Of a DNA stretch of 64,000 nt, positions 2,630-64,000 are shown piece by piece. Source of the stretch: Moraxellaceae bacterium. GTDB lineage: Bacteria; Pseudomonadota; Gammaproteobacteria; Pseudomonadales; Moraxellaceae. The stretch spans positions 434,001 through 498,000 of the forward strand of contig JAQZBP010000003.1 of NCBI GenBank assembly GCA_029237815.1, written 5' to 3'. The notes under the pieces are model-generated. The model was not told where the DNA came from and made no database searches. It saw only the letters and a list, made by a program, of their open reading frames with translations. The translations under genes were made by a program, and so were the position numbers. Each line of letters begins with the position of its first letter. Position 1 is the first letter of the stretch.

Positions 2630-4171
2630 TCACGCGTCGGCCGTTGCCTTCCTGCCACCGGCCTTCGTCTTGTGTTGCCTGGCGCACTTCACCACGTTGT
2701 ACTCGGAGGTATCGAGCTTCCGCGTCTCCAGCCAGAACTTCCAGGTGGAGAACGGCCACAACACGAAGTTGCCGCCTTCGGCGCTCTGGTACCAGCCCTT
2801 GCACCCCGTCGTCCACACAGTGCCGGCGAAACCGTCCTGCACCTTGCGGTTGAAAGCGTCCTGGGCGGACTGCCTGACGTCGATATAATCAGCGCCGCTG
2901 TCCTTCACCAGCTTGATGGCATCCATGATCATCTTCGCCTGGGACTCGATCATGAAGATGATGGAGTTGTGGCCGAGCCCGGTATTTGGTCCCACCAGCT
3001 GGAACATATTGGGATAGCCCGCCGTGAACACGCCGTAGTGCGAGGTCGCCATGTCCTTCCAGTCGTCAACGATGCTGCGGCCGCCCAGGCCGGTGAGCGG
3101 GAAATCCTTCATGTAGACGCGCGGGTCCACGACAAAGCCGGTGCCGAGGATGATGCAGTCGGCCGGGCGCTCCACACCGTCGCGCGTGACGACGCTGTTC
3201 TCGCGGACCTCCTTGATGCCCTCCGTCACGAGCTCGACGTTCTGGCGATTGAACATCGGGTACCACTTGTTGGAGATCAGCACACGCTTGCAGCCGATGG
3301 TGTAGTTGGGCGTCAGCTTGGCGCGGATCACGGGATCCTTCACCTGCACGCGAATGAAAGTCTCCGCGATGCCCTGGAAAAAGCGCGCCAGCGAAGGGTG
3401 GATGATCGGCCAGACGCGCGATTCGTTGGTCCAGTACAGGCGCGCGCGGTGCAGCTTGCGCAGCAGCGGGAAGCGCTCGTACATCTTCTGCTCGATCTTC
3501 CAGTAGCTGCGCGTGTCGCGCGGGATGACCCAGGCCGGCGTGCGCTGGAACACATAGAGCTGCTTCACGTCAGGGGCGATTTCCGGACAGTACTGGATGG
3601 CGCTGCCGCCGGTGCCGATGGACACCACGTTCTTGCCGTGCAGGTTGTAGCCGTGATCCCACTGCGAGGAGTGCATGACCTTGCCCTTGAAGTTCTCAAT
3701 GCCCTTGATCGGCGGCACCGCCGGCACGTGCAGGGGACCGGAGGCCAGCACGAAATACCGGCAGTCGATGGTGTCGCCAGCTTTGGTGCGCAGCGTCCAG
3801 CGCCCGGTGTCGTCGTTGAAATGCGCCTCGCAGACTTCCTGCCTGAAGCGGATGAAGGGGCGCAGGCCGTATTTCTCGGTGGTATCCAGGATGTAGTTGT
3901 GGATCTGGCGCCAGTCGGCATAGCGATGCGTCCAGTCCGGCTTGGTGGCGAAGGAGAAGGAGTAGAGATGCGACTGCACGTCGCAGGCCGCGCCCGGATA
4001 GGTGTTGAAGTACCAGGTCCCGCCGACATCTTCGCCCTTTTCGAGGACCACGAAATCGTCGATGCCGGCTTCGCGCAATTTTATCGCCTGGCAGAGGCCG
4101 CCAAAGCCGGCGCCCAGAATGGCGACTTCCACTGTCTGGATCTTGGTTTGAATGGGGGCCTTGCTCGTCAT
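2630..4171 (-). CDS. flavin-containing (Baeyer-Villiger type) monooxygenase, copy 1
   Basis: FAD- and NADPH-dependent oxygenase of 513 residues. The FAD-binding GAGFGG is at 20-25, the Baeyer-Villiger fingerprint FKGKVMHSSQWD at 161-172 and the second (NADPH) Rossmann loop GTGGSA at 186-191. Known members insert oxygen next to ketones or oxidise heteroatoms; the substrate here is unknown. The start is supported by GAGG a few bases upstream. A close paralog lies upstream on the same strand (4528-6063), with its own terminator between them, so the two are probably transcribed separately. Confidence 0.9.
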   Translation of the reverse strand: MTSKAPIQTKIQTVEVAILGAGFGGLCQAIKLREAGIDDFVVLEKGEDVGGTWYFNTYPGAACDVQSHLYSFSFATKPDWTHRYADWRQIHNYILDTTEKYGLRPFIRFRQEVCEAHFNDDTGRWTLRTKAGDTIDCRYFVLASGPLHVPAVPPIKGIENFKGKVMHSSQWDHGYNLHGKNVVSIGTGGSAIQYCPEIAPDVKQLYVFQRTPAWVIPRDTRSYWKIEQKMYERFPLLRKLHRARLYWTNESRVWPIIHPSLARFFQGIAETFIRVQVKDPVIRAKLTPNYTIGCKRVLISNKWYPMFNRQNVELVTEGIKEVRENSVVTRDGVERPADCIILGTGFVVDPRVYMKDFPLTGLGGRSIVDDWKDMATSHYGVFTAGYPNMFQLVGPNTGLGHNSIIFMIESQAKMIMDAIKLVKDSGADYIDVRQSAQDAFNRKVQDGFAGTVWTTGCKGWYQSAEGGNFVLWPFSTWKFWLETRKLDTSEYNVVKCARQHKTKAGGRKATADA

Positions 4172-4527: not shown

Positions 4528-6063
4528 TCAGGCCTTTTCCGCCACTTTTTCCGGCGCCGCAAGCTTCGTCGAGCAGATGCCGAAAACGTAATCCTCCGCG
4601 TTCACCTTGCGCGTTTCCCGCCAGTACCGGACCGTGGAATACGGCCAGAGCGCGGTGTTCTTTCCGTCCTCCTGCTGGTACCAGCTCTTGCAGCCGGAGG
4701 TCCACACCGTCCCGGTGAGATCACGCTGCACCTGCGCATTGAACGACTGCTGCACCGATGCCCTGACGTCGAGGTAGTCCGCCTGCTTCTGCTGCTGCAA
4801 CTTCATGCACTCGAGCATGTAGTGCACCTGGGACTCGATCATGAAGATGATGGAGTTGTGGCCGAGGCCGGTATTCGGGCCCACCAGCTGGAACATGTTC
4901 GGGTAGCCGCTCACCGTGATGCCGAGATAGGCCTCGGCGGCGTCCTTCCAGTCCTGGCGCAGGTCACGCCCGGCCACGCCGATGACGGGGAAATTCTTCA
5001 TGTAGATGCGCGGGTCGACGATGAAGCCGGTACCGAGCACGATGCAGTCCGCCGGACGCTCGACGCCGTCGCGCGTCACGATTCCGTGCTCGCGGATTTC
5101 CTGGATGCCCTCCGTCACGAGCTCGACGTTCGGCCGATTGAACATGGCGTACCACTGGTTGGAAATCAGGATGCGCTTGCAGCCGATCGTGTAGTCCGGC
5201 GTCAGCTTCTCGCGCAGCGCGGGATTCTTTACCTGCAGGCGGATGAAGCCCTTCACGAAGGCTTCCAGCGTGCGCGCGATGGCCGGGTGGATATTCATCG
5301 CCAGGCGCGCCTCGTTGCTCCAGTAATAGCGCGCGCGGTGCAGCTTGCGCAGCAGCGGAAAGCGGGCGAAGAGCTTCTTCTCGATGCCGAGATAGCCGCG
5401 CTCGTCACGCGGGATGACCCAGGCCGGCGTGCGCTGCATCACGGTGAGCTGCTTCACCTGCGGCGCGATGGCCGGGCAGTACTGGATGGCGGAGGCGCCG
5501 GTGCCGATGGACACCACGCTCTTGCCGGCCAGGTCATAGCCGTGGTCCCACTGCGCGGAGTGCATGACTTTGCCCTTGAAGTTCTCCAGGCCCTTGATGG
5601 CCGGGAAAGCCGGCACATGCAGCGGGCCGGAAGCCATGATGAAGTAACGGGCCGTGTAGGTGGCGCCAGCCTTGGTGCGGACAGTCCACAGTGCCGTCGC
5701 CTCGTCGAAGCGCGCCTCGTTCACTTCCTGGCCGAAGCGCACGAAGGGACGGATGCCGTAGCGGTCGGTGACGTCGTCGATGTAGGCCTTGATCTCGGGC
5801 TGCGGCGCGAAGCGCTTGGACCAGTTCGGGTTGCCCGCGAAGGAGAAGGAGTACATGTGCGACTGCACGTCGCAGGCTGCGCCCGGGTAGCTGTTGAAAT
5901 TCCAGGTACCGCCGACGTCCTGGCCCTTCTCCAGGATCACGAAGCTGTCGTTGCCCGCGTCACGCAGCTTGATGGCGGCACAGAGGCCGCCGAAGCCGGC
6001 GCCGACGATGACGGCGTCCAGGAATTGCGTCTTGCCCGGATGAATGGGGGGCTGGCTGGTCAT
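4528..6063 (-). CDS. flavin-containing (Baeyer-Villiger type) monooxygenase, copy 2
   Basis: A 511-residue paralog of the gene at 2630-4171, colinear over its whole length. GAGFGG is at 21-26, the fingerprint FKGKVMHSAQWD at 162-173, followed by GTGASA. Long shared blocks (for example TYPGAACDVQSH against SYPGAACDVQSH) point to duplication, while the C-termini diverge. GGGAG precedes the ATG. An AraC-family regulator lies divergently at 6209, a common arrangement for inducible monooxygenases. The substrate is not predictable from sequence; steroid, cyclic or aliphatic ketone oxidation are possibilities only. Confidence 0.9.
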   Translation of the reverse strand: MTSQPPIHPGKTQFLDAVIVGAGFGGLCAAIKLRDAGNDSFVILEKGQDVGGTWNFNSYPGAACDVQSHMYSFSFAGNPNWSKRFAPQPEIKAYIDDVTDRYGIRPFVRFGQEVNEARFDEATALWTVRTKAGATYTARYFIMASGPLHVPAFPAIKGLENFKGKVMHSAQWDHGYDLAGKSVVSIGTGASAIQYCPAIAPQVKQLTVMQRTPAWVIPRDERGYLGIEKKLFARFPLLRKLHRARYYWSNEARLAMNIHPAIARTLEAFVKGFIRLQVKNPALREKLTPDYTIGCKRILISNQWYAMFNRPNVELVTEGIQEIREHGIVTRDGVERPADCIVLGTGFIVDPRIYMKNFPVIGVAGRDLRQDWKDAAEAYLGITVSGYPNMFQLVGPNTGLGHNSIIFMIESQVHYMLECMKLQQQKQADYLDVRASVQQSFNAQVQRDLTGTVWTSGCKSWYQQEDGKNTALWPYSTVRYWRETRKVNAEDYVFGICSTKLAAPEKVAEKA

Positions 6064-42572: not shown

Positions 42573-43109
42573 ATGATTCGTGGACGACTGCTCGCCCTGG
42601 CCTTCCTGGGCCTCGCCCTCTCCGGCGCCCTTCCGCTGACGCAGGCCCATGCCGCCGGCGCCCCGCTGCCCAAGGATCTGCAGGGACTCAAGGGCGAACT
42701 CCTCAATCTCAATCGCGACATCTCCCAGATCGAGAAGGACCTGCTCTTCCCGAGCACTGAAACCGCCGTGGTGTTCGCGCTGGAGCCCAGCTCACCGCTC
42801 AAGATCATCGACGCCAAGCTGCTGGTCGACGACAAGGACGTGGCTTATCACTTCTACAGCGAGCCCGAACTCGCCGCGCTCGCCAAGGGCGGCATGCATC
42901 GCCTATTTACCGGAAACGTGACCAGCGGCCAGCACAACCTCAAGGTCGTGATGACGCTGCGCGGCGCCAACGGCGCGGAACAGCAACGCACCGCCAGCTA
43001 CACGTTCACCAAGGGGGCGCAACGCAAGGTCATCGAGGTCAAGCCCGTGGTCCAGGCGACCACATCCCAGGGCGACGTGCGCTTCCGGGAATGGGAAGTC
43101 CAACAATAA
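42573..43109 (+). CDS. exported protein, first gene of the TPR/Tol-like operon
   Basis: A 178-residue protein with a signal peptide (cleavage near QAHAAG). A short coiled-coil (LKGELLNLNRDISQIEKDLLF) is followed by a beta-rich domain (VVFALEPSSPLKIIDAKLLVDDKDV, then SGQHNLKVVMTLRG) that looks immunoglobulin- or carrier-like. The family is not recognised by name. The ribosome binding site is poor. It is periplasmic by prediction and its place at the head of the operon suggests a structural role in the envelope complex. Confidence 0.75.
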   Translation: MIRGRLLALAFLGLALSGALPLTQAHAAGAPLPKDLQGLKGELLNLNRDISQIEKDLLFPSTETAVVFALEPSSPLKIIDAKLLVDDKDVAYHFYSEPELAALAKGGMHRLFTGNVTSGQHNLKVVMTLRGANGAEQQRTASYTFTKGAQRKVIEVKPVVQATTSQGDVRFREWEVQQ

Positions 43110-43167
43110 CCGGAAGTCACTTTTCCAGACCTTTGGCACTCGCGTTTTTTCAGGAATTTTCCGGGCC

Positions 43168-45105
43168 ATGACACAGACCTCTCGCCTTCGATGCGCGCCG
43201 CGGCTCCTGACGCTTGCGGTCGCCCTGCTCGGAATAGCGGCCCCTGTCGCGGCCACCGACCTGCGCGAGCGTCTCAACGTGCGCCAGGAATCCAGCGAAG
43301 TGGTCATCGGCGAGACGATGTACAACTTCTATCTCGGCGACAATTTCACGGCCCTGAACCACATCCTCCTGGCCAAGGCCATGGGCCGCATCGACGAGAG
43401 CATCACCACGTCCGAGCTGCTGCTCGGCGACCTGCTCACCGCCTTCGGCATGCCCGACGAGGCCGACAACATCTTCGCCCGCATCGCAACCCGCGACACG
43501 CGCTCGCAGACCCGCAACGAGACGATGTTCCGCCAGGGCCGCCTGCAATACCGCCAGGGCAACTATTTCGAAGCGGAGCGCATCCTCAACGTGCCGCTCG
43601 ACACCAAGATGTCGACGATCGAGACCGAGCGCCGCGTGATGCTGGCCAACGTGCTGATGACACGCAACGCCTTCCTCGAGGCGCGCGAAGCACTCGCCCC
43701 GATCTCGCTCGACAATCCGCTCGGCCCCTACGCCACCTACAACATCGGCGTCTCACACCTGCGCGCCAACCACGGCACCGAGGGCATGCAGCTGCTCGAG
43801 CGCGTGATGAACCTGCCGGTGAGCGATACCGAAACGAACGCACTGAAAGACCGCGCGGCGCTCGCGCTGGGTTACGACTACCTGCAGATGCAGCAGCCCG
43901 AGAAGGCGCGCGAGGCGCTCGTCAACGTGCGCCTCAAGGGACCGTTCTCCAACAACGCCATCCTGGCGCTGGGCTGGGCCAACTACGAGCGCAAGGACTA
44001 CAAGCGCGCGCTCGCCTACTGGCTGGAGCTGCTCACGCGCAATACCGCCGACCCCTCCGTGCAGGAGGCCATGCTGCTCGCCCCGCGCGCCTATGAGGCG
44101 CTGCAGGCCAACCAGCAGGCCCTCTATGGCTACAAGCTCGCTGCCTCCACGCTGACCGGGCAGCTCGATACGCTGGAGCGGATCGAGAAGGACATCGCCT
44201 CCGCCGGCTGGCTCGATCGCCTGGGCGCCAGCGCCAACCTGGATCCGTTCGGCGATCCCCTGGCCGTGCCGGACTCCATCGTGCCCGCCGACAAGGTCGC
44301 CGTTGCCCAGCTCTTCGCGCTCTTTGCCAGCCATCCGTTCAACGAAGGCTATCAGCAGTACGAGCAGCTCAAGCGCCTGCGTATCGTCCTCGACGAGCGC
44401 AGCAATGACCTGCGCGCGATGCGCGAGATGTCCGCGCTGCTGCGCAAGCGCCAGTCCGACCTGCCGGCGATTGCCGCCCGCGTGACCGAACTCCGGCAGC
44501 GCCTCGACCTCGTCGCCGAGCGCTTCCCCATCCTCGACAAGCGCGCCCGCCAGGCGGCCCGCAGCAGTGCCACCGCCCCCGCCCGCCCTGCCGGCCTGAA
44601 GACGCTGGAGCAGCAGTTCAAGCTGCAGCAGATCGAAACCTCCCTGTCGCGCCAGCCGGACAGCCCGACGGTGCGCGCCCTGCGCGACCGACTGGCCGTA
44701 CTGAAGGGACTCATCCTCATGGACAACGCCAGCAAGGTGGCGCCCTCGCAGGAAGAGATCTATGCCGACCTCGCGCGGAGCGAGTCGCAACTGCGCATCC
44801 TGCAACAGCGCATGGAGGCACTGCAGAAGCTGCTCGCCGACAACCAGCGGCAGGCCGCCGCCAATAACGAAGCAAGGATCAACGACATGGAAAGCCGTCT
44901 GAAGACCAGCTACCAGGCCCTGGACGCGGCCCTCGCCGAATATCGCGGCTACCTGAACCAGCTCGCCTACAACGAGCTGGAGGACCGCCGCAACCGCATC
45001 AACAGTGATATCGCCGAAGCCCACCTCAGCATTGCCCGCCTCCAGGACGCGTCGCTCTTCCGTGACGATGGCCAGGGCACTTCCTCTGCGAAACCGATGC
45101 CATGA
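43168..45105 (+). CDS. exported tetratricopeptide-repeat protein
   Basis: A 645-residue protein with a signal peptide (MTQTSRLRCAPRLLTLAVALLGIAAPVAA). Helical repeats of TPR type run to about residue 330 (for example FRQGRLQYRQGNYFEAERILN and RAALALGYDYLQMQQPEKAREALVNVRL). The C-terminal 250 residues are charged and rich in coiled-coil (LAVLKGLILMDNASK, QLRILQQRMEALQKLLADNQ). Predicted periplasmic scaffold. AGGAA upstream; its end overlaps the next gene by 4 bases (ATGA), indicating translational coupling. Confidence 0.82.
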   Translation: MTQTSRLRCAPRLLTLAVALLGIAAPVAATDLRERLNVRQESSEVVIGETMYNFYLGDNFTALNHILLAKAMGRIDESITTSELLLGDLLTAFGMPDEADNIFARIATRDTRSQTRNETMFRQGRLQYRQGNYFEAERILNVPLDTKMSTIETERRVMLANVLMTRNAFLEAREALAPISLDNPLGPYATYNIGVSHLRANHGTEGMQLLERVMNLPVSDTETNALKDRAALALGYDYLQMQQPEKAREALVNVRLKGPFSNNAILALGWANYERKDYKRALAYWLELLTRNTADPSVQEAMLLAPRAYEALQANQQALYGYKLAASTLTGQLDTLERIEKDIASAGWLDRLGASANLDPFGDPLAVPDSIVPADKVAVAQLFALFASHPFNEGYQQYEQLKRLRIVLDERSNDLRAMREMSALLRKRQSDLPAIAARVTELRQRLDLVAERFPILDKRARQAARSSATAPARPAGLKTLEQQFKLQQIETSLSRQPDSPTVRALRDRLAVLKGLILMDNASKVAPSQEEIYADLARSESQLRILQQRMEALQKLLADNQRQAAANNEARINDMESRLKTSYQALDAALAEYRGYLNQLAYNELEDRRNRINSDIAEAHLSIARLQDASLFRDDGQGTSSAKPMP

Positions 45106-48059
45106 AAGCACGCCAGACTTTTCACTACCGCCTGACTCCCCTCTCGCTGGCCATCGTGCTGCTGGCCGGCTGCGCGAGCGCGCCGCCCCCCGCGCCGAAG
45201 GCCGAGAACAAGACCCGTTTCACCGGTACGCTGGCCGACCTCGAGAGCCGCGAGATCGACATCAAGAACGAGCAGGTGCTGCCGCAGAGCGCCGAAGAGG
45301 TGCTGGCCAACTACCAGACCGCGCTCAAGCTTTTCCGTGACCCGGCCGCGCGCCTCGACACCCTGAAGCGCATGGCCGACCTGACGATGGAATCCTCGCA
45401 GGCGCGCGATGCCGAGAAGGATCCGGCGGCAGCGCCGAAACCCGCCTTCGAGGATGCGCAGCATGAGGACTACATGCAGGGCCTCGACAAGGCCAGCGGC
45501 AAAGGCGCTGCCAAGCAGAAGGGCGCGACGGCCCTGCAGGCCCAGCTCGAGGTCAACTACGGCGAGGCGGTGGAACTCTATGCCGCCGTGGTGAAGAACG
45601 CGCAGACGCCGAACGAACGCGCCGACGCCTACTACAACCTGGCCAAGGCCTACGACCTCAACGGCCAGCGCGCCGAATCCGTCGACACGCTGCGCCTGCT
45701 GGTCACGCAATTCCCGGACAACCCCCTTGCGGTGGAGTCCCGCTTCCGTATCGCCGAATACGAATTCACGGTGGGCCAGTACCTCGCCGCCGCCGACAAC
45801 TATGCCCTCGTGGTGAAGACGCCGGGTAATGCCGATTTCCGCGACCAGGCGCTCTACAAGCAGGGCTGGGCGCTGTACAAGGCTTCCGACTACGATGCAG
45901 CCCAGCCGATCTTCTTCCAGGTGCTGGAGGAGCTTGAGACCAAGGTGCGCAGCGCCGACCCCAAGATCCGCTCGCACGCCGGCAAGCTGCGCGAGGACAC
46001 CTACAGCATCATCAGCCTCGGCTTCATCCAGCAGGAAGGCGCGAAATCGGTCGAGCAGTATTTCAAGAAGGTCGGCCCCAAGAATTACGAAACCGACGTC
46101 TACATGAACCTCGGCAAGGCCTACATGAACCGCCGCCTGTGGCGTAATGCGGCCGAGTCCTACGATTTCTTCGTCGCCAAGTATCCGTTCAGCGCGCGCG
46201 CACCGGAATTCAGCACGGCCTCCATCAAGGCCTTCCAGGACGGCGGCTTCCCCTCCGAAGTGCTGCCCGCCAAGGAACGGTTCGTGCAGCGTTACGGCCG
46301 CACCAGCGAATTCTGGGGCCGTGCCGACGAGAGCACCCGCCAGAGCCTGCTGCCCTTCCTGCAGTCGCACGTGATCGACCTGGCCAAGCACTGGCATGCC
46401 GTCGCCCAGCAGTCGCAGAAGGAAGAGGATTACCTCAAGTCCGCCAAGTGGTATCGCGAGTTCCTGACGCTGGATCCGGCCCCGGCCGAAGCCGTCACCA
46501 TGAACCAGCTGCTGGCGGAAGCGCTGTTCGCCGCGAAGAAATTCGACGAGGCCATCGTCGAGTTCGAGAAGACCGCCTATGGCTATGCGCAGAATCCCAA
46601 GGCCGCCGAGTCCGCCTATTTCGCGCTGCTCGCCTACAACGAACAGGAAAAGGCCGGCCTGAAGGGCACGCCGGAAGAACAGAACGCCTGGTGGGGCCGT
46701 CGCACCGACAGCACCTACAAATTCGCCAAGGCCTTCCCCGCCGACAAGAACACGCCCGTGCTGCTGCAGGGCCTGACCAACGACCAGATCGCGCGCAAGG
46801 ACCTGACCGGCGCCATGAAAACGGCCAGCACCATCCTGCAGCTGTATCCGCCGGCACCGCTGGCGATCCAGAAGGAAGCCTGGGCCGTGGTCGCCGACGG
46901 CGAGTTCAACATGGGCCGTCCGGAAGCCGCCGAAGTCGCCTATGGCAAGGTCCTCGCCTTCACCGACCTGACGCCGGAAGAGCGCCGCACCTACCAGGAG
47001 CGCCAGACGGCATCGATCTACAAACAGGCCGAGAAGCTCAAGGACTCGAAGGACGTGGATGGCGCCGTGTCCGCCTATCTGCGCGCCGCCAAGGTCACCA
47101 CCGACATCAAGCTGAAGTCCTCGGCCGAGTTCGACGCCGCCACCACCTACTTCACGGCCGAGCGTTATGCCGCCGCGATCCCGATGCTGGTGGCCTTCCG
47201 CGCGAGCTATCCCGACAACACGCTGAACAGCACGGTTCCCGACAAGCTCGCGCTGGCCTATGAAAAGACGGGCCAGTTCGACAAGGCCGCGGCCGAATAC
47301 GAGCTGATCTCCGCCGCCAACGCCAGCAGCAATCCGGAAGTGGCGCGCGAAGCCATGTGGGTGGCGGGCGAGATGTACAACAAGGCCGGCCGCAACGACG
47401 AAGCACTGCGCATCTACAAGCGCTACGTGGCGGCGTATCCGAAGCCCATCGATGTGAACATGGAGGCGCTGAACCGCCTCTACACGCATTATGACAAGCA
47501 GGGCAACGCCGCCGAGACCACGACCTGGCTGACGGCGCTGTCTCAGGCCTACGACCGCGCCGGCGGCGACAACACCGCGCGCACCAGTTATCTCGGTGCC
47601 ATGGCGAAGTTCAGGCTGAACCAGCCCGTGTACGAGGAATTCGCCGCAATCCAGCTGACCCAGCCACTCAAGAAGAGCCTGGGCATGAAGAAGGCGGCGA
47701 TGCAGCGCGCGCTCGATGCCTATACGAAGACGGCAGCGATCGGCGTCGCGGAATTCACGACGGCCTCGAACTACCAGATCGCGGAAATCTATCGCAAGCT
47801 CGCCGCCGATCTCATGGCCAGCCAGCGCCCCAACGGCCTCTCCGAGCTGGAGCTCGAGCAGTACGCCATCCTGCTGGAGGAACAGGCCACGCCGTTCGAG
47901 GACAAGGCACTGGACCTGTACATCGCGAATGCCAACCTGGCCAAGCAGAACATCTACGACGACGGCGTGCGCAAGAGTTTCGCTGCACTCGCCAAGCTTT
48001 CACCGGGCCGCTACAACAAGCACGAGCAGCCTGAACCCTTTGTCGACGTGATCTACTGA
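45102..48059 (+). CDS. large TPR-containing lipoprotein
   Basis: A 985-residue lipoprotein: the signal ends LLAGC with Cys24. Many TPR-like repeats follow along the whole length (for example YYNLAKAYDLNGQRAESVDTLRLLVTQFPDNP, and later PDKLALAYEKTGQFDKAAAEYELI). The repeat style is close to that of the large TPR proteins found with Tol/Agl-type motors. Ser/Ala after Cys suggests the outer membrane. Likely the main periplasmic scaffold of the complex. Confidence 0.85.
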   Translation: MKARQTFHYRLTPLSLAIVLLAGCASAPPPAPKAENKTRFTGTLADLESREIDIKNEQVLPQSAEEVLANYQTALKLFRDPAARLDTLKRMADLTMESSQARDAEKDPAAAPKPAFEDAQHEDYMQGLDKASGKGAAKQKGATALQAQLEVNYGEAVELYAAVVKNAQTPNERADAYYNLAKAYDLNGQRAESVDTLRLLVTQFPDNPLAVESRFRIAEYEFTVGQYLAAADNYALVVKTPGNADFRDQALYKQGWALYKASDYDAAQPIFFQVLEELETKVRSADPKIRSHAGKLREDTYSIISLGFIQQEGAKSVEQYFKKVGPKNYETDVYMNLGKAYMNRRLWRNAAESYDFFVAKYPFSARAPEFSTASIKAFQDGGFPSEVLPAKERFVQRYGRTSEFWGRADESTRQSLLPFLQSHVIDLAKHWHAVAQQSQKEEDYLKSAKWYREFLTLDPAPAEAVTMNQLLAEALFAAKKFDEAIVEFEKTAYGYAQNPKAAESAYFALLAYNEQEKAGLKGTPEEQNAWWGRRTDSTYKFAKAFPADKNTPVLLQGLTNDQIARKDLTGAMKTASTILQLYPPAPLAIQKEAWAVVADGEFNMGRPEAAEVAYGKVLAFTDLTPEERRTYQERQTASIYKQAEKLKDSKDVDGAVSAYLRAAKVTTDIKLKSSAEFDAATTYFTAERYAAAIPMLVAFRASYPDNTLNSTVPDKLALAYEKTGQFDKAAAEYELISAANASSNPEVAREAMWVAGEMYNKAGRNDEALRIYKRYVAAYPKPIDVNMEALNRLYTHYDKQGNAAETTTWLTALSQAYDRAGGDNTARTSYLGAMAKFRLNQPVYEEFAAIQLTQPLKKSLGMKKAAMQRALDAYTKTAAIGVAEFTTASNYQIAEIYRKLAADLMASQRPNGLSELELEQYAILLEEQATPFEDKALDLYIANANLAKQNIYDDGVRKSFAALAKLSPGRYNKHEQPEPFVDVIY

Positions 48060-48067
48060 GGCCGCCC

Positions 48068-48949
48068 ATGAGCATTCAGCAACTTCCCGCCAAAAGCGCG
48101 CTTGCCGCCGCCCTCGCGCTCTCGCTGCTGCTGGGCGGCTGCAGCAGCGCGCCGAAGAAGCCGGTCGAGGCCGCCGGGCCCGAGAGCAACGAGCCCGACC
48201 TCGTCGCGCAGCTGCGCGAGCGCATGGCCTCCGGCAACCTGCCACGCAAGGCCAAGGTCGAATCCACCGGCCCCACCGCCGTCACCGGCGACACCTCGAG
48301 CGCGCCCACCGTGACGGTGGACCCGGTCAAGCAGCAGGCCGCGATGGCCGTCGGTGCCGACTATGCGCGTGCCCTCGGCCTGATGAAGGCGGACAGCGAC
48401 GCCGAAGCGCTGGCCCTGCTGCGGCAGATTGGTACCCGGGCGCCGCAGTTCTCCGGCCCGCTGGTGAACCAGGGTGTGATCCTGCTGAAGCAGAAGAAAT
48501 ACGCCGAGGCCGAGACCGCACTGAAAGCAGCACTGAAGGCCAACCCGCGCAGCCCCTATGCCAATAACCTGCTCGGCATCGCGCTGCGCGAACAGGGCAA
48601 GTTCGGCGACGCGAAAGCTGCCTACCAGGCGGCGCTCGCCCTCGACCCGAACTATGCCAAGGCGCACTTCAACCTTGGCGTGCTCGCCGACCTGTACATG
48701 CAGGAGCTGCCGCTGGCGCTCTCGCACTACGAGAAGTACCAGGCGCTGCAGTCCAAGCCGGATCCGGCGGTGGCGAACTGGATCATCGACCTGCAGAAGC
48801 GCACCGGGGTGTACAAGGCCCCGCCGCGCCCGGCCCCGGTGGAACCGGTGGCCACGCCCGACGAGCCTGCTGCCGAAACGGCGCCGGCGACCGAACCACA
48901 GGCCCCGGCAACGGATGCCGCGGCCGCGGAACAGAAGAGCGCATCATGA
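48068..48949 (+). CDS. TPR lipoprotein
   Basis: A 293-residue lipoprotein with lipobox LLGGC (Cys25). A central set of three to four TPR units (NQGVILLKQKKYAEAETALKAALKANPRSP, NLLGIALREQGKFGDAKAAYQAALALDPNYAKAHFNLGVL) is followed by a Pro/Ala/Glu-rich C-terminal tail. It starts 9 bases after the previous stop and overlaps the next gene by 4 bases. It resembles the small TPR lipoproteins (PilF- or GltE-like in architecture only). Confidence 0.82.
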   Translation: MSIQQLPAKSALAAALALSLLLGGCSSAPKKPVEAAGPESNEPDLVAQLRERMASGNLPRKAKVESTGPTAVTGDTSSAPTVTVDPVKQQAAMAVGADYARALGLMKADSDAEALALLRQIGTRAPQFSGPLVNQGVILLKQKKYAEAETALKAALKANPRSPYANNLLGIALREQGKFGDAKAAYQAALALDPNYAKAHFNLGVLADLYMQELPLALSHYEKYQALQSKPDPAVANWIIDLQKRTGVYKAPPRPAPVEPVATPDEPAAETAPATEPQAPATDAAAAEQKSAS

Positions 48950-49266
48950 ACAAGGCACTCAGTGTGGGCCTGCTGGCCCTTAGTCTCGGCAGCCCGTTGC
49001 TGGCGGCGCCCGCCGCCACGGACAAGAAGCCCGAGGCGGCAGCGGGCGGCGCCGCCACGCCGGCCACCGCTCCGGCGGCACAGACCGACATCATCGGCAC
49101 GCAGGAAGCGCCGTCGGTGTTCAACGTGGTGCCATGGAAGGACAAGCCCTCGCGTCTGCCCAAGAAGGAGGTGACCACCTCCATCCTGCGCGAGACGCTG
49201 CAACCGCTGGACCCCGAAGTGCTGCGCCGCGAGATCGAGCTGCAGAAGCGCCTCGGGGAGCAATGA
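48946..49266 (+). CDS. small exported protein of the operon
   Basis: A 106-residue protein with a signal peptide (MNKALSVGLLALSLGSPLLA). An Ala/Pro-rich linker is followed by a conserved-looking C-terminal part (NVVPWKDKPSRLPKKEV, then LQPLDPEVLRREIELQKRL). It overlaps the TPR lipoprotein gene (ATGA). Short periplasmic linkers like this may bridge the inner-membrane motor to other parts. No family name recognised; real gene by context and signal. Confidence 0.72.
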   Translation: MNKALSVGLLALSLGSPLLAAPAATDKKPEAAAGGAATPATAPAAQTDIIGTQEAPSVFNVVPWKDKPSRLPKKEVTTSILRETLQPLDPEVLRREIELQKRLGEQ

Positions 49267-49384
49267 CATTTACCGGGTCATGCCGATTGCGGCAGGCGCT
49301 GCATGACCCTCTTCGAACAACTGCCGTCCAGTTTCGCATTAACAACTTGGGCAACGTCGCCAGAACAATAAACAGGAGTCCCCG

Positions 49385-50038
49385 ATGAACATGTTCCAGA
49401 GCTTTGCGTCCTTCATGCAGGAAGGTGGTGTGTGGATGTATCCCATCCTGCTTACCCTGGTCGCCGGTATCGCCATCAGCATCGAGCGCTGGCTCTATCT
49501 CTCCAAGGTGGAACGGGTGAACAAGGAGCTGTGGGCGGAAGCCTTCGCGCTCGTGTCCAAGGGCCAGGTCAAGGCCGCGCTGGAGAAGACCAAGGTGTCC
49601 GACTCCGCGCTCGGCATCATCCTCACCAACGGCCTTACCCGCCTCGTCACCTCGCGCAAGATGGACGACGTGGAAATGGCGATGGAAGAAGGCCTGATGG
49701 AGTCGCTGCCGCGCCTGGAAAAGCGCACGCATTACCTCTCCACGCTGGCCAACGTCGCCACCCTGCTCGGCCTGCTCGGCACGATTATCGGCCTGATCCA
49801 CGCGTTTACCGCCGTGGCCTCCGCCGACCCCGCCGAAAAGGCGAACCTGCTCTCCGCCGCCGTGGGTGAAGCCATGAACTGTACGGCCTTCGGTCTCATC
49901 GCCGCGATCCCGATGCTGGTCATGTTCTCCCTGCTGCAGTCCAAGACCGGCGCCGCCGTGGAGTCCCTGGAAGCCGCTTCCGTGAAGTTCCAGAACGTCA
50001 TCCGCCAGATCGGCAACCAGCAGACCCCGCAGCAGTGA
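49385..50038 (+). CDS. MotA/TolQ/ExbB-type proton channel protein
   Basis: A 217-residue inner-membrane protein with three membrane segments (about 15-35, 118-140 and 165-187). The family core is LEKRTHYLSTLANVATLLGLLGTIIGLIHAF and AMNCTAFGLIAAIPMLVMF. It should pair with the two TolR-like proteins encoded next to form a proton-driven motor. AGGAG precedes the ATG. The 118-base gap before this gene is the largest in the operon, so a second promoter could lie there. Confidence 0.92.
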   Translation: MNMFQSFASFMQEGGVWMYPILLTLVAGIAISIERWLYLSKVERVNKELWAEAFALVSKGQVKAALEKTKVSDSALGIILTNGLTRLVTSRKMDDVEMAMEEGLMESLPRLEKRTHYLSTLANVATLLGLLGTIIGLIHAFTAVASADPAEKANLLSAAVGEAMNCTAFGLIAAIPMLVMFSLLQSKTGAAVESLEAASVKFQNVIRQIGNQQTPQQ

Positions 50039-50072
50039 GGCCCGCCCCTACCGCATTCCGGAGTGAATTCCC

Positions 50073-50582
50073 ATGAGGCGCCGTAAACCGCGCGAGTTGG
50101 AAGCCGACCTGGACATGACCACCTTCATCAACCTGATGGTGGTGCTGCTGGCCTTCCTGCTCGTGACCTCTGCCTTCACCGAACTGTCGCGACTGCAGGT
50201 GAACCTGCCGTCCGGCGGTGGCGGTGCAGGGGGCGCTGACGCGCCCAAGCCGCTGGTCCTGGAAATATCGATCTACAAGGACAAGTTCGTGGTGGCCGAC
50301 CGCCAGTCGGGCCCCATGAAGATCGTCAACGCCACGCCGCAGGGTCTGGACTTCAAGAGCCTCAACGAATACCTGGTCGGTGTGAAGGCCAGCTATCCGG
50401 CGATCACCGAAGTCACCCTGCTGCTGGAACCGGACACCGACTACGACACCCTGATCCACACCATGGACTCCGTGCGCTACAAGCCGCGCGAAGTGAACGG
50501 CAAGTGGATCAAGGCCTCGCTGTTCCCGGACATCGGCATTGGTGACGCGCCGACCGCCGCGGAAGCCGGAGGTGCCGCATGA
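50073..50582 (+). CDS. TolR/ExbD-type protein lacking the usual membrane Asp
   Basis: A 169-residue protein with one N-terminal membrane helix (DLDMTTFINLMVVLLAFLLVTS) and a periplasmic domain. At the position where ExbD (Asp25) and TolR (Asp23) carry the essential proton-binding Asp, this protein has Asn20 (F-I-N-L-M). Asp12 and Asp14 just before the helix are not equivalent. It may be a structural partner of the next gene's product, which keeps the Asp. Overlaps the next gene by 4 bases. Confidence 0.88.
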   Translation: MRRRKPRELEADLDMTTFINLMVVLLAFLLVTSAFTELSRLQVNLPSGGGGAGGADAPKPLVLEISIYKDKFVVADRQSGPMKIVNATPQGLDFKSLNEYLVGVKASYPAITEVTLLLEPDTDYDTLIHTMDSVRYKPREVNGKWIKASLFPDIGIGDAPTAAEAGGAA

Positions 50583-51088
50583 GCAAGCAATCCGCCCAGC
50601 TGGCGCGCATGGCGCGCCGCCACCGGCTGAAGAAGCCGGCGTCGATCCAGCTCACCTCGCTCATCGACATCCTCACGGTGCTGGTGTTCTTCCTGCTGGT
50701 GAACTCGCAAAACGTCACCAACATCCCCGACAGCCAGCAGCTCGACCTGCCGAAATCGACCGCCGACACGCGCGCCGAGGAAACGGTGCTGACGGTGATG
50801 GTGAACGCGAAGGACATCGTGGTGCAGGGCGTGAAGGTGGCCAGTACCGCCGAAGCGCTGCAGATCCAGGGCGATGTCATCCCCGGCCTCGCCAAGGAAC
50901 TCGCCTATCGCGCCAGCAAGGCGCCGCCCAAGCTGAACGAGCAGGGCATTCCCGAGCGCGAGGTCATGATCCTCGGCGACAAGGGCATCCCCTACTCGCT
51001 CTTGCGCAAGGTCATGGCTACCTGCTCCGCCTCCGACTACAGCAAGATCGCCTTCGCGGTAATGCGCACGAAGGAGGGCAGCCGATGA
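50579..51088 (+). CDS. TolR/ExbD-type protein with canonical membrane Asp
   Basis: A 169-residue protein with a membrane helix at about 24-45 (SIQLTSLIDILTVLVFFLLVN). The proton-path Asp30 is in L-I-D-I-L as in ExbD/TolR. The periplasmic domain carries VLTVMVNAKDIVVQG and EREVMILGDKGIPYSLLRKVM, the usual ExbD fold. Starts within the stop of the previous gene and overlaps the next by 4 bases. Confidence 0.9.
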   Translation: MSKQSAQLARMARRHRLKKPASIQLTSLIDILTVLVFFLLVNSQNVTNIPDSQQLDLPKSTADTRAEETVLTVMVNAKDIVVQGVKVASTAEALQIQGDVIPGLAKELAYRASKAPPKLNEQGIPEREVMILGDKGIPYSLLRKVMATCSASDYSKIAFAVMRTKEGSR

Positions 51089-52134
51089 GCAATCTCGTCC
51101 TCGAGTACATGCGCCCCACGCTGCCGTGGGATCCGCAGCCGGGCGAAAGCACCCGCTTCCGCGCGCTGATGGCGTTCTTCCTGATCCTGGCCTTCCTCAT
51201 CTGGATCATCGTGCCGCGCATCGAGATCCCCAAGGTCGACCGCGCCAAGGCCGAAGCCGTACCCGAGAGCCTGGCCAAGGTGGTGATGCAGCGCAAGGAA
51301 GTGCCCCCGCCCCCACCCCCGGTGGAGACGGTGAAGAAGGAAGAGATCAAGCCCGAAGAGACGGTAAAGAAGGAAGAGGCCGCGGTCCCGCAGCCGAACC
51401 CTGACGCCGCGCCCAAGCCCGTGGTCACGGACCTGCAGCGCAGCGCCGCCAAGGCTCGTGCCAGCCAGGCCATCCAGGACGCCGGCTTCGACGACCTGGC
51501 CGACCTGCGCGACATGGACGTGGCCGCCGCCGGCGCGCCGCGCGGCATGCCCGGCCAGACCGGCAACGGCACGGGCGGCCTCATCACCAGCACCGAGGAA
51601 GCGGGCACCAGCCGCAACCTGATCACCAGCCGCGCCGGCTCCGGCTCGGGCTCTTCCGCCGGCGCCTACAGCGGCGGCGTGAGCACGGGCTTCGGTGGCG
51701 GCAAGGCCGGTGGCAAGGGCACGGCGGGCCTGCTCGGCGCCGCGGGTGCCGGCGGTGGCAGCGCGCAGCTGCAGAAGGTGCAGAGCACCATCGGCAGCGG
51801 CGGCGCCGCCGCCTCGGAAAGCCGCGTCGGCAAGGACGGCAAGTCGCGCCGTACGGCCGAGGACATCCGCAAGGTCTTCGACCGCAACGGTGCCCGCCTG
51901 AACAACCTGTACCAGCGCGCCCTGCGCGACGATCCCACCATGCAGGGCCTGGTGAGCCTGTCCCTGACGGTGGCGCCGGACGGCTCGGTGTCGAATGCCT
52001 CGATCACCTCCAGCCAGCTCAACAACTCCGAGCTGGAAGGCAAGATCCTGGCGCTGGTGAAGGGCTTCAACTTCGGCGCCGCGCCGGTGGACGTGTGGTC
52101 GGGCAACTACAGCCTGAACTTCTACGCCAACTGA
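51085..52134 (+). CDS. TonB/AgmX-like trans-envelope protein
   Basis: A 349-residue protein with one membrane segment (about 27-46). A Pro/Lys/Glu-rich stretch (KEVPPPPPPVETVKKEEIKPEE) like that of TonB is followed by a Gly/Ser-rich low-complexity linker (about 155-250). The C-terminal domain (from about 256: RTAEDIRKVFDRNGARLNNLYQRAL, then VTVAPDG-like strand) is of the AgmX/PglI type found in Agl/Glt gliding proteins and TonB-like transducers. It probably carries motor force across the periplasm. Last gene of the operon, followed by a terminator. Confidence 0.88.
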   Translation: MSNLVLEYMRPTLPWDPQPGESTRFRALMAFFLILAFLIWIIVPRIEIPKVDRAKAEAVPESLAKVVMQRKEVPPPPPPVETVKKEEIKPEETVKKEEAAVPQPNPDAAPKPVVTDLQRSAAKARASQAIQDAGFDDLADLRDMDVAAAGAPRGMPGQTGNGTGGLITSTEEAGTSRNLITSRAGSGSGSSAGAYSGGVSTGFGGGKAGGKGTAGLLGAAGAGGGSAQLQKVQSTIGSGGAAASESRVGKDGKSRRTAEDIRKVFDRNGARLNNLYQRALRDDPTMQGLVSLSLTVAPDGSVSNASITSSQLNNSELEGKILALVKGFNFGAAPVDVWSGNYSLNFYAN

Positions 52135-52151
52135 CGCTGTCACCCGGAACG

Positions 52152-52179
52152 AAAAAGGCGCGGATTTCCGCGCCTTTTT
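52152..52179 (+). terminator. intrinsic terminator of the TPR/Tol-like operon
   Basis: AAAAAGGCGCGGA, TT, TCCGCGCCTTTTT, 17 bases after the stop at 52134. Confidence 0.88.
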
Positions 52180-52322
52180 CTTTTCTGCGGCCCGTCGTCC
52201 CCGCCCTCGCGCAGCCGCACGCCATCTGCGACCACGCTGCCGCCACAGCGGCATGATGGCGGCGTGCTCGCCGCTGCGCTCCTGCTGCCCTGCTACACTT
52301 CGCGATTCCTGCCGAGGCGCGC

Positions 52323-61723: not shown

Positions 61724-62656
61724 ATGACTCTAGCTACACATACCAAGACAGACGGCGCCGCTGCGGCGAGATTTGCAGCTGGGCTTCTCGGCATCGCTAC
61801 TTGCGCCGAAACCACAGCTACGACAATGACGGAGGATGCTGCGAAAGTTGATGTCAAATTCTCGTTCCGTCATATTGCGAGGAAAGAGAAACTGATCACT
61901 GCGCACGCTCAAGTAAAGGCCGGCCCTTCATACAGAAAGGACTCATCAAACAGCACGCATTTAACACTTGGCATAGATAAGGACACGTTACAGGCTTTGT
62001 CAGGCACAGGCATGCCTGGCGTGGTTATCTGGGTACCACCGCCCCCGATGGACCGCCTATATTGGTATTCAACAGACCCGCGAAGCGCCTCTAAAAGTCC
62101 AGTGAAGATCAGAAGGACTCAGTACATACGTCCTTCGCTTCGCTATGACTTATCTAGGCTCTACGACTATGCTTCTTGGACCCGGGGATACACCAAGCAA
62201 ACAGTTGCGATGCTTCCGGACCCCCAAGTAATGGCAAGGGCAAAACAATCATATAAAGCGCTAAAATCACAGAGTTGGCACAACCCTCTGGTAGGCCCCC
62301 TTCACGTCACCCGACTTGCTTGGCGCCATATAACGAGGCGCTCAAAATCTTCGACTCGCAGAACAATGTCCCTTCGGATCGTTCCTTACCTCAAGGCATT
62401 TCTAGCAAGTCCTCCCGACAGGTATGCCTGCAACTTTGTAGGCATTAAGGAGTCGGGGGCAATGACAATTGAGACCAGATACCTTATGTGCTGGTATCGA
62501 CAAGCGCTTACTGTAAACGGAGAAAGCCACTCACTGCTTGTCCGAATTCGAGAAGAAATTACTTACCCGACAAATTGGAGCTCTCGCCCACTTAGTGCCA
62601 ATGCCATAAAGCAGGTGGCAACCTTGGCATCTTGGTGGTGCAAGAAAGATAAGTGA
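61724..62656 (+). CDS. possible DUF4365-like nuclease-fold protein
   Basis: A 310-residue protein. The N-terminal about 115 residues read like DUF4365/PD-(D/E)XK-like proteins: D43 in KVDVKFSF, then A-Q-V-K-A-G-P-S (Q63-V-K65), then TLGIDKDTLQAL and VVIWVPPPPMDRLYWYS. The rest is basic and not recognised. The ribosome binding site is weak. Codon use and base composition differ from the core genes. If the family call is right, it is probably a DNA-degrading or DNA-binding partner in a mobile or defence module. Confidence 0.55.
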   Translation: MTLATHTKTDGAAAARFAAGLLGIATCAETTATTMTEDAAKVDVKFSFRHIARKEKLITAHAQVKAGPSYRKDSSNSTHLTLGIDKDTLQALSGTGMPGVVIWVPPPPMDRLYWYSTDPRSASKSPVKIRRTQYIRPSLRYDLSRLYDYASWTRGYTKQTVAMLPDPQVMARAKQSYKALKSQSWHNPLVGPLHVTRLAWRHITRRSKSSTRRTMSLRIVPYLKAFLASPPDRYACNFVGIKESGAMTIETRYLMCWYRQALTVNGESHSLLVRIREEITYPTNWSSRPLSANAIKQVATLASWWCKKDK

Positions 62657-62991
62657 CGTACCCGCCTCGGGTTGCTGTACTGACACCTTGATAGAACAAC
62701 TAATCGTCCTATCTTAATGTCATCTAACCAGTATGGTTGAGACGGATACGCCACGGAGAATTGTACAACCTAGATATTGTCGGGCCAAGACATAAACATT
62801 TTTATCTGACCACCAATCCACTCAAATATAAACCGAAGAAGCCATTTTGCGAGATTTAACCGTTATCCCTTTCAGATCAAATGACATGCAATACATCAAA
62901 TGCGAACACTGCAAGAGCTCGTAAAAAGGTCTTTCATTAGGCCACTAACCCGTTCGACAAAAAAGACTCTTCATTTCGGGGGAATCTACCT
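62657..62991. other. gene-free AT-rich stretch
   Basis: About 335 bases with no supported coding sequence or RNA. A good ribosome binding site (GGGGG at 62978-62982) at its right end serves the KTSC gene. Confidence 0.5.
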
Positions 62992-63192
62992 GTGCAAATG
63001 ATCAACGTTAGCTCAAGTGCAATTTCTGCAGTTGGCTATAACCCTTCGTCCCAGCAGCTTTATATCCGCTTTCATAAAGGGCACACATACTCTTTTTGCA
63101 GGGTTCCGCAAAGCATATTTGAGGGCCTTCTCGCCGCAGGCTCCAAAGGCAGCTATTACGATCGCCATATTAAGGATAGGTACCATTGCTAG
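62992..63192 (+). CDS. KTSC-domain protein
   Basis: A 66-residue protein with the KTSC pattern: SSSAISAVGYNPSSQQLYIRFHKGHTYSFCRVP, then IFEGLLAAGSKGSYYDRHIKDRY. The family is named after Lys-tRNA synthetase C-terminal occurrences and is common in mobile and defence loci. Its function is unclear. Start GTG 62992 is nine bases after GGGGG; ATG 62998 is the alternative. It lies about 115 bases before the ATPase gene on the same strand. Confidence 0.82.
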   Translation: MQMINVSSSAISAVGYNPSSQQLYIRFHKGHTYSFCRVPQSIFEGLLAAGSKGSYYDRHIKDRYHC

Positions 63193-63306
63193 ACACTTAA
63201 AAAGGTGCATGCCAGCCCCACGGCAAGCTATGCACATAAATTGGTTTAGGCCGACATGCTACATGCGAGACCTTAACCCCAACTGATAAGCTAGGGAGAG
63301 TGCGAA

Positions 63307-64000
63307 GTGAGGCTACGACGGCTAGAAGTACAAGGATTTCGGTCGCTTCAGCAGTTCCAGATCACCTTTGATAACGACTTGACCATTGTTGTGGGAGAAA
63401 ACGACGCTGGAAAGACGTCACTCATAGAATGCCTTAAAGTAATTACGCAGGGCCGGTCAGTAAACCCAGATGACTTCACATATGGGCGTGAGCAGCTTCT
63501 GATAACTATAGAAATAGAAGACTTCGTCTTTCGAAAGGAATACAGAAGAAGTGGCAATACTGTTACGGAAGAACCACTTATAGCATTTCCCACCACTGCT
63601 TATGTGCAGAAAACCCTCGACAGGCTCCGAAGCGAAAACTTGGATATTTCCTCTGACGAGGAGAAAAATTTCATAAGAGAAGTAGCAAAACTTTTTGGAT
63701 TAACCGTAAGGTCAAATTCGGTTATTGAAAATCTCAGAGTTCAACTGATAGATAGGCTCAGCGCTGACGGGGATTTAATAATAGATGGCGCCACCTTCCC
63801 GAGATTCAACCATATCCAATTAGATGGAAGGCACTTTGAAAATATTCCAGCCTTCTTTAAGGAAGTTTTTCTTAAAGAGAAGCAAGCAAGTATTTGGCGT
63901 GAGAATGTAAATGAAGGGATAACAATAGAGACTTTTGTTAGATCTCACCTCGAAGCATACTCAAACGAAGTATCACGACAGATACAAGACCGCGGCATTA
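63307..64000 (+). CDS. OLD/RecF-like AAA ATPase, N-terminal part (cut by window edge)
   Basis: An open frame from GTG 63307 to the last base, 231 codons. It starts (M)RLRRLEVQGFRSLQQFQITF and has Walker A GENDAGKTSL at about residues 30-39, the hallmark of SMC/RecF/OLD-family ATPases. The typical strand LTIVVGENDAGKTS is followed by charged helices suggestive of coiled-coil. AGGGAGAG lies upstream. OLD-family ATPases with a C-terminal TOPRIM nuclease are phage-defence proteins (OLD, Gabija GajA); whether TOPRIM is present lies beyond the window. AT-rich. Confidence 0.85.
   Translation, partial: MRLRRLEVQGFRSLQQFQITFDNDLTIVVGENDAGKTSLIECLKVITQGRSVNPDDFTYGREQLLITIEIEDFVFRKEYRRSGNTVTEEPLIAFPTTAYVQKTLDRLRSENLDISSDEEKNFIREVAKLFGLTVRSNSVIENLRVQLIDRLSADGDLIIDGATFPRFNHIQLDGRHFENIPAFFKEVFLKEKQASIWRENVNEGITIETFVRSHLEAYSNEVSRQIQDRGI

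Follow-up and report, generated by a model that had tools for sequence, protein, structure and literature searches.

What does a proton-driven machine related to the Agl/Glt apparatus of Myxococcus do in the envelope of a gammaproteobacterium? The question is raised by an operon in a 64,000-nucleotide stretch of Moraxellaceae DNA (contig JAQZBP010000003.1, positions 434,001 to 498,000; hereafter the window). Between positions 42573 and 52134 of the + strand, open-reading-frame calls give nine co-directional genes, A to I, with ATGA overlaps at four junctions (B/C at 45102, D/E at 48946, G/H at 50579 and H/I at 51085), followed by a strong intrinsic terminator on the same strand (52151-52180, z -4.2). 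The run of same-direction genes, the several ATGA overlaps and the single terminator at the operon end, all described in an earlier note on this DNA, are thus borne out. For gene I, the TTG of a longer reading frame at 50539 was rejected as a start, and the ATG at 51085 was taken instead.

The products fall into an exported part, a motor and a transducer. Gene A (42573-43109) encodes an exported protein of 178 residues, for which structure prediction gives a helix and a β-sandwich of the transthyretin/Ig kind (pLDDT 87), in keeping with its previous description as exported and β-rich. A Foldseek search of the PDB with gene A gave no match under E 0.001, and the fold comparison returned common β-sandwich arrangements only (Z up to 9.7) and is uninformative. 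Gene B (43168-45105) encodes an exported, GltC-like TPR/coiled-coil protein; gene C (45102-48059), a GltD-like TPR protein of 985 residues, and gene D (48068-48949), a GltE-like TPR protein, are both predicted outer-membrane lipoproteins. Gene E (48946-49266) encodes a small exported protein with the family motif GNrELPKvLYIVPWK. The motor is formed by gene F (49385-50038), a TolQ/ExbB-type proton channel and AglR counterpart, gene G (50073-50582), the first ExbD/TolR-type protein and AglQ counterpart, and gene H (50579-51088), the second ExbD/TolR-type protein and AglS counterpart. Gene I (51085-52134) encodes a GltG-like inner-membrane transducer. Pfam and NCBIfam place TPR repeats in B, C and D, MotA_ExbB in F (PF01618, 95 bits) and ExbD in G and H (PF02472, 54 and 62 bits), and give no family match for A and E. 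Gene C has YbgF/CpoB-like TPR matches, and gene D reaches 37 bits against the curated GltE model, under that model's cut-off. Gene I scores 55.8 bits against the AgmX/PglI C-terminal domain model NF033768 (cut-off 40) and also matches the curated GltG model, below its cut-off. These matches agree with the TPR, TolQ/ExbB, paired TolR/ExbD and AgmX-like products proposed from the sequence at first reading, and the lipoboxes found in C and D agree with their being TPR lipoproteins. Under the Lol rule, the residue at position +2 of a lipoprotein is read as a sorting signal; it is not Asp in either C or D, so sorting to the outer membrane is likely for both.

Two lines of evidence bear on whether the nine genes belong together. 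First, dN/dS against two relatives is 0.12-0.34 for each of the nine genes, a range by which all of them are under purifying selection and are not chance reading frames. Second, we surveyed the locus in other genomes. A strong match to gene C occurs in 90 of the 370 gammaproteobacterial genomes searched; 95 loci were retrieved and joined to the window (96 in total), and profiles built from the nine proteins were run against all their reading frames. The earlier note had held that its reading would fail if the genes were not conserved together; the outcome is in its favour, since the exact order A-I is found in 55 of the 96 loci and all nine genes in 63 of the 88 that have enough flank for gene-content counts, numbers that, like the residue counts below, come from loci of shared ancestry and are not phylogenetically independent. 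Among the same 88 loci, gene A is present in 79, gene E in 85 and the motor genes F-I in 76. Genes B and C are fused in one reading frame of 1418-1595 residues in five loci, which suggests that the two proteins may touch.

The motor genes are missing at the remaining 12 loci, which hold A-B-C with or without D and E (L034, L035, L045, L062, L070, L072, L087, L088, L090, L092, L096 and L102). Eleven of the 12 genomes concerned carry another C gene, mostly in an operon with motor genes; the sole genome lacking one is that of L088. The additional C genes suggest either that motor-less copies may share a motor in trans or that the outer part may have a motor-independent use.

To place the operon, we used as comparison genome Myxococcus sp. 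CA023, found with the MglA protein as bait. The window-family profiles match one aglRQS locus of this genome (F, E 1e-56; G, 3e-25; H, 4e-36) and a second motor as well. Profile C matches four GltD/NfsD-type paralogues (E 1e-51 to about 1e-107), profile D GltE-type proteins (1e-39 to about 1e-67) and profile I a GltG-type protein (3e-28). Profile B matches gltC of the gltBAC operon at E 6e-7 and a gltC paralogue at 2e-15, a similarity part of which may come from shared TPR repeats. Gene A has one weak homologue (E 1e-5), which adjoins B- and C-type genes on the contig that carries mglA, and gene E has no detectable homologue in Myxococcus sp. CA023. The identification of E with GltF, suggested by the same operon position, was not adopted, 224 of 2000 shuffles having scored equally well against one GltF-like protein.

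Luciano et al. (2011) described a core complex (Group B: gltC, gltD, gltE, gltG, aglR, aglQ and aglS) that is clustered in Gammaproteobacteria and has no known function there, together with one extra gene in the gammaproteobacterial cluster that has no homologue in Myxococcales and Bdellovibrionales (PMC3169522). Because its profiles match AglR/Q/S and GltC/D/E/G of Myxococcus, the window operon, with these seven components in one cluster outside Deltaproteobacteria, belongs to this core complex; on these homologies it is almost certainly a gammaproteobacterial Agl/Glt-type core machine, of a class known since 2011. The earlier reading of it as a proton-driven, envelope-spanning relative of Myxococcus Agl/Glt therefore holds against both the Myxococcus genome and the published gene set. 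The motor, the transducer and GltC/D/E are homologous to those of both the gliding (AglRQS-GltA-K) and the spore-coat (Nfs) machines of M. xanthus. The window family differs from the published core complex in adding two conserved genes, A and E (the former with its weak Myxococcus homologue), in the Asn of its AglQ counterpart, in having motor-less copies, and in the barrels and redox cassette to which it is linked in other species. A function for the gammaproteobacterial complex was not found in the open-access literature; as leads towards one, the present survey adds a putative one-site motor, barrels and cargo candidates. As far as searchable papers show, the conservation of A and E, the residue pattern of G and H, the linkage to GltA/B-family barrels and to the redox cassette, and the clade with DUF11 proteins are new.

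The motor departs from its Myxococcus counterpart at the proton site. In Myxococcus the proton Asp is present in AglQ and in AglS alike, whereas the window has Asn20 in G and Asp30 in H. Across the gammaproteobacterial loci the residue is Asn in 78 of 80 G proteins and Asp in all 80 H proteins; one of the two exceptions in G, L081, has an H-like sequence in place of G. Both ExbD proteins have Asp in Myxococcus, Corallococcus, Hyalangium, Anaeromyxobacter and Sorangium, and Nannocystis, with a gamma-like cluster arrangement, has Asn in G. Position 162 of AglR follows this division in part, being Glu in most myxobacterial proteins and Val or Ile in most gammaproteobacterial ones; the window (gene F codon 162, 49868-49870) and its two nearest relatives have Glu at this point of the channel helix. 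In M. xanthus, proton conductance, motility and sporulation are all lost when AglQ carries D28N (PMC3858216). Searches of the open-access literature found no mention of Asn in the AglQ counterpart.

Most simply read, this pattern means that the axle pairs two unlike ExbD proteins and has a single proton site. The F protein would form a TolQ-like pentamer enclosing G and H, with Asp30 of H as the only point of proton passage and G as a proton-inert structural partner, giving a 5:1:1 motor with one such site. Alternatively, the axle may consist of H only, with G placed elsewhere. For the window operon, we lean slightly towards the heterodimeric axle and single-site proton flow that we infer here; that gammaproteobacterial Agl-type motors in general are natural one-site motors, with a TolQ-like pentamer, a two-ExbD axle, one Asp and, in the other subunit, the same Asp-to-Asn substitution that disables the Myxococcus motor, strikes us as an even proposition. 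A review leaves undecided whether AglQ and AglS form homodimers or a heterodimer (PMC9389320). Since a G homodimer with Asn could hardly conduct protons, the gammaproteobacterial family makes this question testable. An apparent one proton site instead of two also asks whether 5:2 rotary motors need both.

In its AlphaFold2 model, the transducer begins with a membrane helix (residues 19-45), from which a long disordered linker leads to a C-terminal domain predicted with confidence. Sequence searches of the PDB gave no match for H and I. The fold list for I is topped by the TonB, TolA, HasB and FusB domains (best Foldseek E 8e-4; VIA-align Z up to 8.3 across 81-86 residues), and the C-terminal domain is thus predicted to be TonB-like, in the sense of a shared fold and not of functional proof. 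It differs from the transducer of the vWA force-transducing systems (PMC12204202), which has a von Willebrand A domain; Pfam and the fold search find none in gene I, with the TonB-like domain instead. It also differs from Myxococcus GltG, whose cytosolic FHA domain (PMC3169522) has no counterpart in gene I.

The predicted fold invites the reading that the operon is a dedicated TonB-type importer, in which the transducer would let a polymer or a metal in by opening a channel in the outer membrane; cellodextrin import has indeed been proposed for the FSU_2400-2403 proteins by the authors of the Fibrobacter work (PMC6851124). A TonB-dependent receptor gene was not seen, however, among the recurrent neighbours of the operon, the large TPR scaffold and the two ExbD genes are unlike Ton systems, and the AgmX/PglI and GltG models fit gene I better than TonB. 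We regard an importer as quite improbable.

The neighbours of the operon in other gammaproteobacteria offer candidates for what the machine acts upon. They vary by clade among the 96 loci, clades being assigned from a concatenated tree of all 96. The TIGR04565 barrels occur in 56 of the 90 genomes with a C gene and in none of the 280 without (p 6e-43, shared ancestry ignored), and for 41 of the 56 the distance to a C gene is no more than 25 kb. The Myxococcus members of TIGR04565 include two barrels directly before gltC, namely GltB and GltA, the outer-membrane barrels that bind GltC (PMC4488436). The Myxococcus machines have GltA/B barrels, and other gammaproteobacterial copies are likewise linked to barrels of that family; Luciano et al. 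had confined gltA and gltB to Myxococcales and Bdellovibrionales (PMC3169522), so the survey ties this family to the machine in Gammaproteobacteria, where it was thought absent.

Two kinds of cargo candidate emerge: a flavin/thiol redox cassette and giant DUF11 surface proteins. The cassette lies near the operon, mostly upstream, with genes for a TlpA-like thioredoxin at 22, DUF3570 at 17 and ApbE at 14 of the 96 loci, and also DUF4266; it is spread over several separate clades. DUF3570 occurs in 76 of the 90 genomes with a C gene against 22 of the 280 without (odds ratio 64, p 7e-44, shared ancestry ignored), and 56 of the 57 genomes with its short form have the machine. DUF3570 is flavinylated by ApbE (PMC8238504). 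For the barrels and DUF3570 alike, physical linkage together with the scatter over clades argues that the co-occurrence does not come from ancestry alone. In the redox-linked clades, the machine might service an outer-membrane flavin/thiol cassette (DUF3570, ApbE, TlpA, DUF4266) that the window copy lost or never had. As an account of the machine we hold this improbable: the cassette is not beside the operon in the DUF11 clade or in the window clade, and the only DUF3570 of the window genome is on another contig, beside a DsbD-like gene.

At L119:1-17044, a divergent island has on one side the core operon, ApbE, an exported protein resembling DUF1501, a LamG lipoprotein and a PSD2-domain protein, and on the other a lipoprotein with a hydrazine-synthase-alpha domain, an SH3-barrel protein, a GltA/B-family barrel, TlpA and DUF3570.

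The DUF11 proteins mark one clade of 13 loci, 12 of which have genes for giant DUF11 proteins 3' of the operon. This clade includes a second full A-I operon of the window genome itself (L117; L117 and L128, G000:C3:500500-533227), about 35 kb downstream on the opposite strand, which is followed by genes for a 2848-residue DUF11/SdrD-like protein and a 1737-residue OmpA-domain protein.

The window copy belongs to another clade, of nine loci, in which neither a barrel nor a DUF3570 or DUF11 gene stands beside the operon. Its constant neighbours are a MATE-like transporter gene and pdxB, the latter adjoining nearly always; both were set aside as functional partners since they look like inherited synteny. 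The window genome has no TIGR04565 barrel over the cut-off, the best reaching 39 bits against 60, on another contig. This bears on whether the window organism has a true gliding or surface-motility motor. Homology to Agl/Glt and the use of the same motor to power gliding in Myxococcus speak for it (PMC3169522), but Luciano et al. argued that the core alone is insufficient (PMC3169522), the GltA/B barrel is missing at that cut-off, and the AglQ counterpart bears the change that paralyses the Myxococcus motor, which together leave gliding highly improbable here.

For the window copy, the chief competing account is a Tol-like role in the envelope. In an accessory system resembling Tol-Pal, the motor would pull on the TPR lipoproteins so as to tether the outer membrane, or constrict it, and maintain its integrity, with no surface cargo. 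The operon shares with Tol-Pal and Ton the parts of a 5:2-type proton motor and a TonB-like transducer domain, and the two predicted outer-membrane lipoproteins, the YbgF/CpoB-like matches of C and the lack of a barrel or adhesin gene beside it fit such a role. It differs from both systems in its two different ExbD proteins, its large TPR part and its lack of TolB, Pal or a receptor, the absence of TolB and Pal from the nine genes being the result of the Pfam and NCBIfam searches. Elsewhere in the genome a TolQ-family gene adjoins tolB, so the window operon neither is Tol-Pal nor replaces it. Its presence in about a quarter of the sampled genomes (90 of 370 by gene C) is also unlike a housekeeping system. 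An accessory role of this kind is unlikely in our judgement.

Taken as a whole, the evidence is best explained by an Agl/Glt-type core machine with a two-ExbD, one-site motor, a TonB-like transducer, a TPR assembly and a surface cargo, a reading to which we give a probability of about 0.5. The motor would drive the TonB-like transducer I, which would span the cell wall and pull on a periplasmic and outer-membrane TPR assembly made of the lipoproteins C and D, soluble protein B and the two small proteins, A and E. Its task would most likely be to move surface cargo anchored in the outer membrane (an adhesin, a barrel complex or a polymer) in one direction, or to assemble it, and not swimming or import. 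Gene content, homology, conservation and the residue pattern are observed and the TonB-like fold is predicted, whereas these subunit interactions and the cargo are what we infer.

A motor of this kind transports outer-membrane complexes in Myxococcus, both in gliding and, when the spore coat is assembled, around the spore (PMC3858216). Fibrobacter succinogenes is listed by Luciano et al. among the carriers of the core (PMC3169522), and its proteins FSU_2396 (OmpA), FSU_2397 and FSU_2398 (TPR) and FSU_2400-2403 (ExbB, ExbD, ExbD and TonB) are up on cellulose; several from FSU_2396-2403 were seen on cellulose only, and FSU_2396 and FSU_2397 were reported in complex with cellulases and fibro-slime proteins (PMC6851124, PMC4619616). 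This run (OmpA-TPR-TPR-gap-ExbB-ExbD-ExbD-TonB), which we matched to the operon by order, size and annotation alone, was read by its authors as a scaffold and a TonB importer. The GltA/B-family barrels and giant DUF11 surface proteins, with the Fibrobacter and Myxococcus data, favour proton-driven handling of surface cargo. We propose that function for the gammaproteobacterial machine tentatively, and leave the cargo of the window copy unassigned.

Three minor observations concern the surveyed records and the rest of the window. A record titled Comamonas sp. KCTC 72670 (L132, BNCN01000011.1) encodes an MglA 99% identical to that of Myxococcus and is probably mislabelled or contaminated. Window positions 62001-64000, reached by a reading frame at 61724-62656, have a G+C content of 46% against about 65% elsewhere and are possibly acquired DNA. 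Two adjacent, similar flavin-containing monooxygenase-like genes (2630-4171 and 4528-6063) are apparently a tandem duplication.
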